From Candidatus Stahliibacteriota bacterium (GTDB lineage: Bacteria; Hydrothermota; Tepidihabitantia; SM23-42), in the NCBI GenBank assembly GCA_030602565.1, contig JAUVZL010000031.1, forward strand, positions 1 through 33,091: a stretch of DNA of 33,091 nucleotides. Reading direction: 5' to 3'. The notes beneath the pieces were generated by a model that was not told the origin of the DNA, searched no databases, and saw nothing but the letters and a program-made list of their open reading frames with translations. Below are positions 11,518 through 33,071 of the stretch, in pieces; positions within the stretch are counted from its first letter, which is position 1, and each line of letters starts with the position of its first letter. A program made the translations under genes and the position numbers.

Positions 11518-11671
11518 CAAGAACCAAGAAGCAAGAAGCAAGAGTCAAGAGTCAAGAAGCAAGAAGCAAGAGTCAAGAAGCAAGAAGCAAGAGTCAAGAA
11601 GCAAGAGTCAAGAAGCAAGAAGCAAGAAGCAAGAGTCAAGAAGCAAGAAGCAAGAAGCAAGAAGCAAGGGG
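11518..11671. repeat. Heptamer tandem array, 22 units
   Basis: Twenty-two uninterrupted 7-bp words make up 154 bp. The two main words are CAAGAAG and CAAGAGT, in irregular alternation; the first unit is CAAGAAC and the last CAAGGGG. There is no spacer sequence, so it is not a CRISPR. It lies between the GIY-YIG-like gene and the 3' end of carB. Seven is not a multiple of the 10.5 bp helical turn, but it would be read as a heptad in any translation. Confidence 0.95.
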
Positions 11672-14800: not shown

Positions 14801-15089
14801 TGAGTGCAACCTGTCCACCAAAACCTGGTAACAGTCCGTCAGGACGTTCCTTTTTGATGATCTTGGTTAATGTATCGATGTTGAGAGGTTCGATATAGAC
14901 GATGTCAGCGGTCCGTTCATCAGTTTGTATTGTCGCTGGATTTGAATTGACAATGATTGTGCGGTACCCCTCTTCCTTAAGGGACCAGCTTGCTTGGGAT
15001 CCTGAAAAATCGAATTCAGCAGCTTGACCAATGATAATTGGTCCGGAGCCAATAATGAGGATTTTCTTCAGGTCTTTGCGTTTTGGCAT
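11865..15089 (-). CDS. carB: Carbamoyl-phosphate synthase large subunit
   Basis: With CarA it makes carbamoyl phosphate from glutamine-derived ammonia, bicarbonate and two ATP, feeding pyrimidine and arginine synthesis. The 1074 residues equal the usual family length (about 1073). The N-terminal half starts with ILIIGSGPIIIGQAAEFDFS and is duplicated in the second half (ILIVGSGPIRIGQGIEFDYC, near 555), the two ATP-grasp synthetase units. TLGGTGSG and VLGGRAM mark their ATP-binding loops. The C-terminal MGS-like allosteric domain (about 940-1074) contains SIVATRGTADFL and the expected INTP. The start lies within carA (22 bp overlap), so translation is probably coupled; no separate Shine-Dalgarno is obvious. 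Whether UMP or ornithine regulates it cannot be told here. Short-word repeats follow its stop codon. Confidence 0.98.
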   Translation of the reverse strand: MPKRKDLKKILIIGSGPIIIGQAAEFDFSGSQASWSLKEEGYRTIIVNSNPATIQTDERTADIVYIEPLNIDTLTKIIKKERPDGLLPGFGGQVALNLSCELAQQGILGKYSVELLGSTYETIEIAENRQAFRLLMEAVHEPSPRSSVCQSLDGVRQAVEQISYPVLVRPAYTLGGTGSGVAESWQDLQEIASAGLRQSPIKQVLVEENLLGWKEFEYEVMRDGNDNCITICGMENINPMGVHTGESTVVAPTQTLTDQEHQKLRSTSLKIIRALKICGGCNIQFAVNRFKWEYRIIEVNPRVSRSSALASKATGYPIARVSAKIAVGMTLDEIPNAVTKKTSAAFEPTLDYVVVKIPRWPFDKFPTVDRRITTQMKSTGEAMAIGSTIEESLQKALRALEIDKYGFEPEPIIEHELIKELQEPTDRLLLCIAEALRRGYSIKKVSELTKIDKFFIRKIARIVTFEKRLKRERLDEQLLRQAKRLGYSDQTIAELTNQTAREIRRLRISHDIRPGFNMVDTCAGEFEAITPYFYSTYYTTPGKKYRKKNEKRILIVGSGPIRIGQGIEFDYCCVHAALTLKDAGFEAIMINSNPETVSTDFDVSSRLYFEPLTLEDVLNVLEEENCSKIILQFGGQTSINLAMPLAKLGKTAKPRISILGTQPDDIHRAEDRKLFSHLLKSLKIKHPAFGTGYTYEDVKTMAEEVGYPVIVRPSYVLGGRAMEIVYEPEGLEQYIETAAQVSKTHPVLVDKYIADAVEVDVDALCDGRDVYVAGIMEHIEQAGVHSGDSYCVMPPYTLTPRTVDRIKSITRKLAFALKTKGFINMQFAIKKGAIFVLEANPRASRTIPYVSKTINVPLATLATKIIIGEKLENLLKARQRTLPKSKFVSIKGPTFPFLKLPGVDPILGPEMKSTGEIMAIDQSFGAAYYKAILSDNKFSDHGTVYMTIRDEDKPKIVQLAKDFISLGFSIVATRGTADFLKDLGIRVKTVYRISEHKSPNALDLMRQQKIHLIINTPTLTFRAKRDGYAMRRLAVELNIPFITALSSASAEIEAIRFAKSASLTTRPLREYHRR

Positions 15090-16153
15090 ATGGTGAGCTC
15101 TGAAAATTCTTTAAAAAGAAACCATGTATCACGCGGGCCAGGTGCAGCCTCTGGATGGAATTGTACGGAAAAAACAGGTCGCGTTCGATGGCGTATCCCT
15201 TCAATCGTACCGTCATTGACGTTTACCCAGGTAATTTCGGCATCAAGGTTCTTCTGGGCTTGAAGCGCATACCCGTGGTTTTGTGATGTGATGTATATTT
15301 TCTGGCTGCAAACATGCTTAACTGCATGGTTTGAACCGCGGTGGCCGAACTTCAGTTTGTAAGTCTTAAAGCCGAGCACAAGACCCAGTATCTGATGGCC
15401 AAGGCAAATGCCCATAACTGGGTACTTATCAATCAGTTTCTCAACTGTCTTGGCAGTCGTTGACAGTATAGCCTGGAGTGCTGGGTTTCCTGGACCATTT
15501 GAAACTACGATACCGTCAGGTTTTAGTCTATCAATAGTCTTAATGTCAGTATCAAACGGAACTTGGATAACAGTGCCATGTTTTATTAGGTGTTTTAAAA
15601 TGCTTGATTTTACACCGCAGTCTATCAATACAAAACGGCTGGGACCCTTGCCATGAATTATTTTCTTGGTACAGGATACATGCGCGACCAAATTTTCAGC
15701 ATCCGGGTACGGCGTCTGTTTGATTCTTCGAAGCAATGCATGGTAGTCCATTTTTGAAGGGTGTGCTACAATCATTGCTTTCATTGTCCCGTGCTTTCTT
15801 ATTTTCAAAGTCAAGGCTCTGGTGTCGATATTGTAAAGGCAAGAGACTTTTGACAAATCAAGGAATTTATCGAGATGCATACCACGGTAGGCGAAAAAAC
15901 AGGGCTCTTTCAAAATGAGCCCTCTTATTTGAACTTTATTAGATTCGAAGTTCTTTTTTCGAATGCCGTAGTTACCGACCAGAGGATAGGTCATCAGAAG
16001 AATCTGGCCGGCGTATGAAGGGTCAGTGAATGCTTCTTCATAACCGGTCATTGATGTATTGAAGACTATTTCACCGAAAACATCTCTTTTTGCACCAGCG
16101 TGTTTAGCTTTGATGAGGGTTCCGTCCTCAAGGACGAGGAAAGCGGTTGACAT
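15068..16153 (-). CDS. carA: Carbamoyl-phosphate synthase small subunit (glutaminase)
   Basis: This subunit hydrolyses glutamine and passes ammonia to CarB. The 361-residue product has the CarA-specific N-terminal domain (LEDGTLIKAKHAGA, then FNTSMTGYEE) and a class I glutamine amidotransferase domain from about 170 on. The catalytic triad is readable: C250 in GICLGHQ, and H333 and E335 in FHPEA. VSNGPGNP (218-225) is the oxyanion loop. It sits first in a carA-carB pair with 22 bp overlap. The gene has a near-consensus promoter whose -10 box ends 11 bases before the ATG; no Shine-Dalgarno sequence is present, so a very short leader is expected. Confidence 0.97.
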   Translation of the reverse strand: MSTAFLVLEDGTLIKAKHAGAKRDVFGEIVFNTSMTGYEEAFTDPSYAGQILLMTYPLVGNYGIRKKNFESNKVQIRGLILKEPCFFAYRGMHLDKFLDLSKVSCLYNIDTRALTLKIRKHGTMKAMIVAHPSKMDYHALLRRIKQTPYPDAENLVAHVSCTKKIIHGKGPSRFVLIDCGVKSSILKHLIKHGTVIQVPFDTDIKTIDRLKPDGIVVSNGPGNPALQAILSTTAKTVEKLIDKYPVMGICLGHQILGLVLGFKTYKLKFGHRGSNHAVKHVCSQKIYITSQNHGYALQAQKNLDAEITWVNVNDGTIEGIRHRTRPVFSVQFHPEAAPGPRDTWFLFKEFSELTICQNAKT

Positions 16154-16206: not shown

Positions 16207-16465
16207 CCTAAAGATAAGCAAATACCTAAAAATCCAAAATACCTAAATGCCTAAAGACAAGCAAAGACCTAAAGATAAGCAAAGACCTAAAGATAAGCAA
16301 ATACCTAAAAATCCAAAATACCTAAAGACCTAAAGATAAGCAAATACCTAAAAATCCAAAATACCTAAATGCCTAAAGATAAGCAAAGACCTAAAGATAA
16401 GCAAATACCTAAATGCCTAAAGACAAGCAAAGACCTAAAGATAAGCAAATACCTAAAAATCCAAT
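16207..16465. repeat. CCTAAA-word array between carA and accC
   Basis: Seventeen units each begin with CCTAAA and are 18, 17 or 8 bp long, in a mosaic order. The main types are CCTAAAGATAAGCAAATA, CCTAAAAATCCAAAATA and the short CCTAAATG or CCTAAAGA. The array starts just upstream of the carA promoter and runs into the palindrome series at 16463. A related segment in opposite orientation lies beyond carB (11790-11819). An open frame through the repeat (Lys- and Pro-rich) is an artefact of the word structure. Confidence 0.92.
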
Positions 16466-16609
16466 TCGAAGGGAATTCCAACTGTTCCAGCCGAAGGTCT
16501 CGAGTTTTTCGAGAGGCACGCAGTGCTAACTTCCAGCCTATGGCTCCTTTCCAGCATGTAGTGCTCTCTTCCAATCACTTGTGATTAAATCTAAGTCACT
16601 CAATGACTT
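16463..16609. repeat. Array of about eight unrelated short palindromes with 17-20 bp period
   Basis: Small hairpins follow each other at a nearly constant step. They start at 16463 (AATTC/GAATT), about 16480 (weak), 16498 (TCTCGA/TCGAGA), 16516 (GCAC/GTGC), 16535 (AGCC/GGCT), 16553 (AGCAT/GTGCT with one G-T pair), 16573 (AATCAC/GTGATT) and 16593 (AAGTCA/TGACTT). Loops are 2-5 bases. Several are separated by a CTTCC or TTTCC spacer. The stems differ in sequence, though four share a CAC-like/GTG-like core. No T-run follows any of them, so they are not ordinary terminators. Confidence 0.75.
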
Positions 16610-16665: not shown

Positions 16666-18003
16666 TTACATTTCTTCGATGAAATGCGTTGAAATGTCGC
16701 CCTTGATGAACTTTTTGTTGTCCATGATTTTTTTATGAAAAGGGATGGTAGTTGGTATGCCTTCAATAACGATTTCATCAAGGGCATGTCGCATACGTGC
16801 GATCGCTTCCTGGCGCGATGAGCCATGGCATATCAACTTGCCGATCAGCGAGTCATAGTGACTCGGGATATTGTAGCCGGCAAATATATGGGTGTCAAAT
16901 CTAATGCCGAGGCCTTGCGGCATGTGGAAAAAACTGATTCTGCCGGGCATTGGTACGAAGTTGCGGTCGGGGTTTTCTGCATTGATACGACATTCTATGG
17001 CATTGCCTCTGAGTTCAACCTCATTCTGCCCAAGCGTCAGCTTTTCACCAAGGGCAATTTGAATCTGTTCCTTTAGTAAATCTATGCCGGTCACCATTTC
17101 TGTTACTGGATGTTCAACCTGTATCCTTGTATTCATTTCCATGAAATAGAAATTCTTGTTTTCGTCGAGGAGAAATTCAATGGTGCCGGCGGACCGGTAC
17201 TGGATACTCTGTGCGGCCTTTATTGCGTTTTTTAATAGTTTCTGCCTTAGTTTGTGGTCGATACCTGGCGCGGGCGACTCTTCAAGTAACTTCTGGTGGC
17301 GACGTTGGATAGAACACTCCCTTTCGCCTAGCGCTATCACGTTGCCATAGTTATCACCCAGGATCTGTACCTCAATATGCCTGGGTCGGGCAATGTATTT
17401 CTCGATATATATTCTGCCGTCGCCAAAGGCTGCCTTGGCTTCTGCTTGGGCGATGCGATAACCTGATTCCAGTTCTTCGTCATTGCGGGCGATTCTCATC
17501 CCTTTACCGCCGCCGCCTGAAGCCGCCTTCAGCATTACTGGATAGCCGATTTCTTCACTTGCCTTTTTTACTAAAGCAAGCGATTCTATTGCGCCGTCGC
17601 TGCCCGGGATACCAGGAATACCGGCTTGGTTCATGGTGTTTTTTGCTCTGATTTTGTCGCCCATAGCCCTTATGTGTTTGGGGTCAGGACCGATGAATAT
17701 TATACCGCAGGATTCGCAAATCTCGGCGAATTCCGGGTTTTCAGCGAGAAACCCGTAACCCGGATGGATTGCTTTAGCGCCAGTTATTTCTGCAGCACTA
17801 ATAATGCGTGTTATATTTAGGTAGGAATCTCTGCTCGGCGCCGGGCCAATACATACAGCTTCGTCGGCGATTCTAGTATGTAAGGCATCACTATCAACCT
17901 CTGAATACACGGCAACCGTTTCAATTTTCAACTCTTTGGCGGCGCGGATAATGCGGATTGCGATCTCTCCGCGGTTAGCAATCAGTATTTTTGTAAATTT
18001 CAT
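16666..18003 (-). CDS. accC: Biotin carboxylase subunit of acetyl-CoA carboxylase
   Basis: It carboxylates biotin on AccB using ATP and bicarbonate, the first half-reaction of malonyl-CoA synthesis for fatty acids. At 445 residues it has the normal AccC length. Visible are the N-terminal [16 protein letters not shown], the ATP-grasp glycine loop SGGGGKGMR (162-170), [14 protein letters not shown] (229-242) with the catalytic-region lysine, and [14 protein letters not shown] (289-302) with metal and biotin-site residues. It is the last gene of the TPR-accB-pilT-accC unit, after a 95 bp gap that holds a 10-bp word repeat. No good Shine-Dalgarno is seen before the ATG. A lone AccC could also serve another biotin-dependent carboxylase, but accB two genes upstream argues for acetyl-CoA carboxylase. 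Confidence 0.96.
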
Positions 18004-32969: not shown

Positions 32970-33071
32970 TGGAGTAGGGGCTTTAGCCCCGTCAAAAGCA
33001 ATGAAATTTCATCAGTTTTCACGAGCATAAATGCCTGCCTATGCGTTCGCACGCAGACAGGCTCTACTCCA
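32970..33071. repeat. REPIN-like inverted pair of hairpin elements
   Basis: TGGAGTAG at 32970-32977 begins a unit with the hairpin GGGGCT-TT-AGCCCC (32977-32990). The inverse CTACTCCA at 33064-33071 begins, on the other strand, a second unit with an imperfect GCCTG...CAGGC hairpin (33033-33062; inner GCG/CGC pairing). The two head-to-head units with the same 8 bp leader and different stems resemble REPIN or MITE structure. No associated transposase is in view. Confidence 0.55.

Follow-up and report, generated by a model that had tools for sequence, protein, structure and literature searches.

Within the window, a stretch of 33,091 nucleotides from a Candidatus Stahlbacteria (candidate division WOR-3) MAG, the gap between the minus-strand genes accC and carA, whose identities were confirmed by Pfam, holds a series of small hairpins (Table 1). 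Among named relatives, CSMAG_2146 is the closest (accC protein 98% identical); array-bearing genomes are treated as MAGs throughout, and gene context comes from plain ORF calls. An initial annotation had described at least six clear hairpins with stems of 4–6 bp, stepping by 18–20 bp. The six that it listed were all recovered at their positions, and a six-hairpin chain with 14–22 nt steps arose in 2 of 10,000 dinucleotide shuffles of the same region, which was picked post hoc, after the chain had been seen. The chain holds, with midpoints spaced about 15–22 nt, but it does not form one homogeneous series: hairpin 1 lies in a separate 26-bp insertion, the next four belong to TTCC modules, and the sixth is a border. 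Folded as a single RNA, the region scores moderately better than shuffles (z of −1.7 on the minus strand and −2.7 on the plus strand).

Table 1 Features of the accC–carA gap and its flanking genes (window positions; hairpin stems are 4–6 bp).
Feature	Coordinates	Strand	Composition and basis
carA	15068–16153	−	
Remnant of the two-armed element's centre	16468–16484	+	GAAGGGAATTCCAACTG; alignment of full-length copies, whose centre reads ...GGAATGATTTAAAATGAAGGGAATTAAAACTG... at this place; left arm missing in the window
Module R1	16485–16530	+	TTCC tag (16485–16488), cassette AGC(insert)ACGCAGTGCT, linker AAC
26-bp palindromic micro-insertion	16492–16517	+	CGAAGGTCTCGAGTTTTTCGAGAGGC; filled/empty site pairs, other copies
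Hairpin 1	16498–16514		
Hairpin 2	16516–16526		
Module R2	16531–16548	+	TTCC + AGCC-TAT-GGCT + CCT
Hairpin 3	16535–16545		
Module R3	16549–16568	+	TTCC + AGCAT-GTA-GTGCT (one T.G wobble) + CTC
Hairpin 4	16553–16565		
Module R4, array end	16569–16590	+	TTCC + AATCAC-TT-GTGATT
Hairpin 5	16573–16586		
Hairpin 6, border hairpin	16593–16609	+	AAGTCACTCAATGACTT, no TTCC module; meets flanking DNA
accC	16666–18003	−	

The stems had been called unrelated and the series not a copied repeat. The former is true within the window array, but genome-wide the modules have copies elsewhere, and the latter fails: a 198-bp segment, searched against the genome it comes from, finds 55 matches, of which roughly half are strong (E down to 3e-33), and these partial matches cover differing parts of the query in differing contexts. 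Across the genus there are 14–26 element matches per genome. A scan for hairpin runs of the kind the initial annotation had proposed, over a 36-kb sample of intergenic sequence, returned 10 chains of at least four hairpins, against 1.4 in shuffles, the window chain being the longest; G000 was sampled as 361 kb of stretches, partly chosen for having matches, so that densities are biased upward. Many further instances exist in the genome, where the initial annotation had named a lack of any as grounds for abandoning the idea.

Full-length copies have a centre near GGAATGATTYAAA...GTTCC from which two arms extend outward, each arm holding about 4–6 hairpins that differ in sequence while the linkers stay constant; the window has the right arm only. 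The module grammar is a TTCC tag, an A...T-closed hairpin (stem 3–6 bp, loop about 3 nt), a linker usually of 3 nt, and the next TTCC; R1 without its insert is the common module TTCCAGCACGCAGTGCTAAC. From 68 arrays in G000–G003 and G016 we collected 184 modules, 81 of them distinct, by tag spacing alone and with hairpins not used as a criterion. Perfect hairpins make up 63 of the 81, and about 7 more pair perfectly and depart from the grammar in the length of the linker alone; whole modules measure 16, 17, 18, 20, 22, 24 or 25 nt. The window series is probably an incomplete copy, reduced to the right arm, of a dispersed repeat family that is non-autonomous, an estimate that covers this reading jointly with the rest of the best explanation developed below.

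Searches yielded arrays in the genus and also in G016 and G013; at the same sensitivity, the other genomes searched gave none. Most G016 copies sit on short MAG contigs and could be mis-binned; those at L162 and L168, on contigs of 3–4 kb, are about 93% identical to arrays of another genus and could reflect transfer or mis-binning. Of the 20 arrays that could be assigned to gaps, 17 are in tandem gaps, a share not clearly different from background, and a preference for convergent gene ends was rejected. A second tagged hairpin family, with the linker TGAAGACAC, occurs at L139:17700–17850 and in L193, L207 and L211, with stems of at least 5 bp in 17 of its 39 distinct modules compared with 6.4 when permuted; two ACCG-type tag patterns gave no clear palindrome excess.

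Within the TTCC modules, stems of at least 4 bp directly after the tag occur in 38 of 75 distinct modules (a smaller set), against 4.7 when halves were exchanged between modules (maximum 11 in 500 trials). Ungapped 20-nt modules have 92.8% of cells paired with 20 double-sided changes, and ungapped 18-nt modules 100% with 18; for both lengths, none of 500 shuffles matched the pairing, the double-sided changes or the covariation score. Variant stems include AGTGT-GAA-ACACT, AGTGC-GAA-GCACT, AGTAC-GAA-GTACT, AGCAC-GTA-GTGCT and AGCAT-GAA-ATGCT. Because relatedness among the sequences weakens the shuffle controls, more weight falls on slid controls, which pair only 13–44%, and on the second genus. 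There (G013), tag and A–T closure are unchanged and the stems partly different, and at loci chosen because they match one module pair all 16 distinct modules have stems of at least 3 bp, compared with 8.7 permuted. On the TTCC strand, about 7 distinct cassettes carry G.T wobbles against about 1 with A.C, which weakly suggests that this is the folding strand.

Judged from the aligned modules, it is pairing, and not sequence, that is conserved. The module permutation, shuffle and slid controls bear out the initial proposal that symmetry and spacing persist while stems change, and the compensatory change it had anticipated is strong. Its alternative picture, a symmetric DNA site every two turns on one face, is not favoured, since module lengths vary and what is kept is pairing rather than sequence. 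The family supplies dozens of natural hairpins that keep their shape and lose their sequence.

In aligned copies, whole hairpins are replaced with tags and linkers unchanged: slot L2 holds AGTGT...ACACT, ATCCC...GGGAT or ATCGC...GCGAT, and slot R3 holds AGCAC...GTGCT or ATCCC...GGGAT. The cassette ATCCCGAGCAAGTCGAGGGAT precisely fills the space from TTCC to the linker in both slot R3 and slot L2, and arrays gain and lose modules as whole units. The 26-bp palindrome in R1 (TTCCAGC^ACGCAGTGCTAAC) has an empty site at L139:17467; GC lies on either side of the insert, a possible 2-bp duplication, and the R1 hairpin is re-formed to its right. Copies of this palindrome occur in other modules of G000 and G003 and also in a GCAC/GTGC hairpin tip outside the TTCC family (L203:1223; empty site at L139:12038), while those in L149 and L015 themselves host a second 26-bp palindrome. 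Among 98 insertion/empty pairs, 24 inserts have a stem of at least 6 bp, against 4.5 expected; loop insertion as a general rule was set aside as weak (30 of the 98 insertion points, 19.5 expected). Comparison of the copies thus demonstrates dispersal, presence/absence, insertion and cassette exchange of arrays. A bolder reading, which we hold only tentatively and rate as rather improbable, is that the hairpin cassettes are themselves mobile: pieces of ~9–30 nt whose only defining traits are A–T closure, palindromic symmetry and a position after TTCC. An enzyme recognising shape and tag irrespective of sequence would shift them between slots, continually renewing the set of hairpins in the arrays.

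Other nested palindromes, GTAGTTGTCTGAT..ATCAGACAAT.GCCCGAT..ATCGGGCGACTAC, lie in L193, L203, L132 and L211, and the loops of some of them contain CCCCGTTAGAT..ATCTAACGGGG elements. A palindromic insert of 28 bp, GCCTGCCTATGCGTTCGCACGCAGACAG, is found at 33033–33060 of the window, with an empty site at L142:121.

Orthologous gaps differ in their arrays. The accC–carA gap of G003 has no array between flanks that are 97% identical; other palindromes stand there instead, together with the right-hand part of the border hairpin (AATGACTTTTAGTGAAACG), the left stem being absent as such. Nor was the array seen in the accC–carA gaps read from G013 and G008. Between G000:C48 and its G003 counterpart, whose genes are about 95% identical, most of the palindromic content is not shared between the gaps that were compared, and one array is present in G003 only; presence and absence at orthologous sites, as expected of a mobile element, is therefore observed. 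The initial annotation had placed its string of hairpins in the accC–carA setting, and the position between two same-strand genes would suit an attenuator or an array of protein-binding sites. Because the array is missing from the G003 gap despite its near-identical flanks, it is no conserved carAB control element, and a regulatory element of this gap is very improbable; under the same joint estimate as the repeat-family reading, the array is more credibly a passenger than a conserved regulator. Short stems commonly arise by chance, but the shuffles and the genome-wide grammar contradict a chance series, the probability of which we consider close to negligible.

The strong covariation would also suit a structured RNA family with a fishbone fold, in which GGAA/TTCC linkers join the two arms by base pairing into a stalk, the side hairpins are paired as well, and selection acts on the transcript, for example for mRNA processing or termination. 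Such a cross-arm stalk is possible, since same-rank linkers are partly complementary across the arms of full copies, and the wobble bias also weakly favours one folding strand. However, the outer letters of the linkers show no covariation between arms, half-arrays and insertion-broken arrays are common, orthologous conservation is slight, the window and five array-bearing loci gave no Rfam match above the gathering score, and the window copy has only a moderate folding advantage over shuffles; we regard an RNA family as unlikely. Less likely still is replication template switching (quasipalindrome correction), a mechanism raised initially, which would make and repair palindromes with no mobile element and use the linkers as microhomology for exchange between arrays. 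It would account for symmetry that is perfect while sequence is free and for modules gained or lost whole, and the short common linkers could serve as exchange points. Taken alone, though, it leaves unexplained why several sites hold identical copies of a 26-mer or of a 21-bp cassette; these copies, with the empty sites for the 26-mer, call for copying between loci beyond local correction. A CRISPR array was rejected: in place of identical repeats with unique spacers, the arrays have a constant part of just 4 nt and variable palindromes with copies elsewhere. Phage carriage was likewise dropped, one module-pair pattern having no exact match in viral contigs, and the matches listed in a plasmid search were carA coding DNA only.

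On the best reading, the arrays form a new family of non-autonomous repeats, REP/BIME-like and tagged with TTCC, that is maintained as a folded single strand. The unit would be recognised and propagated in folded form, which would keep the pairing; the strand is probably lagging-strand ssDNA, with a transcript less likely. The covariation, together with the likeness to tagged palindromic repeats handled by RAYT/HUH enzymes (PMC3733652, PMC3116915), is the ground for inferring an enzyme that recognises a single strand in folded form. The agent would be a structure-reading nuclease or transposase, and an HUH (Y1) transposase of these genomes is the likeliest, on circumstantial grounds. Y1 genes number 9–13 per genome in the genus. 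The link is circumstantial because none of the 13 Y1 genes of G000 lies within 2.6 kb of a TTCC-array match detected in element searches, and the Y1 flanks examined bear other inverted ends; G017 has 12 Y1 genes and zero element matches, and no autonomous partner was found for the TTCC arrays. A reverse transcriptase as the shared agent was discarded (one RVT_1 in G000, none in G001–G003). The Y1 genes at L151, L153 and L155 have inverted, TIRYT-like ends such as GGGGTCAAATCTCGAAA and GGTCAGGTCTTGAAATTTAAG. That at L157 has GGAGTGCGTCAGCTTGCTGACGC / GCAATAGCAAGCTATTGCACTCC hairpins on either side, of a kind also present in the G003 accC–carA gap.

REPINs are non-autonomous, intergenic elements with two inverted palindromic halves. 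These halves form one larger structure (PMC3116915), as in the full-length TTCC copies, although here each arm has about 4–6 different hairpins with constant linkers, compared with one REP per arm. Like REP/BIME and the GTAG/CGTC-tagged repeats (PMC3733652), the TTCC arrays carry a constant tetranucleotide at one hairpin end, have alternative complementary stem letters, form dimers or clusters and are mostly intergenic; the family is a short stem-loop with complementary stem variation in many intergenic copies. Their stems, however, are 3–6 bp against mostly 6–9 bp (PMC3733652), no flanking RAYT was found among the 13 Y1 genes, and, unlike REP/BIME, they are ordered arrays of several different hairpins each, with whole-cassette swaps. 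Because their tag is TTCC throughout, and not the defining GTAG or CGTC, we file them as a tagged-hairpin variant outside those families. MITEs and TIRYT/TIRtron ends (PMC3733652) fit the neighbouring CCCCGTTAGAT...ATCTAACGGGG elements and the Y1 genes with GGGGTCA-type ends, both of which nest in the same gaps as the arrays; the arrays, unlike MITEs, appear to lack long terminal inverted repeats, and a possible target-site duplication, GC, is seen only at the 26-bp nested insert.

Very small mobile hairpins of variable sequence are also known as mitochondrial double-hairpin elements and GC clusters, and the TTCC arrays resemble them in this. We know of no tag-plus-slot grammar for those elements. 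They are organellar, from fungi and algae (for example PMC4478555 and PMC5910586), which sets them apart from the TTCC arrays. An open-access literature search found no paper on such repeats in this phylum. With module boundaries, empty sites and candidate enzymes in hand, the spread of tiny palindromic repeats becomes testable.

Two further repeat arrays lie elsewhere in the window. Positions 16207–16457 form a tandem-like array of CCTAAAGATAAGCAAATACCTAAAAATCCAAAATA with periods of 18, 43 and 61, the vocabulary of which reappears in other gaps, for example in L014, L005 and L149, and a CAAGAAG heptamer array of 21.6 copies (11518–11668) adjoins carB.
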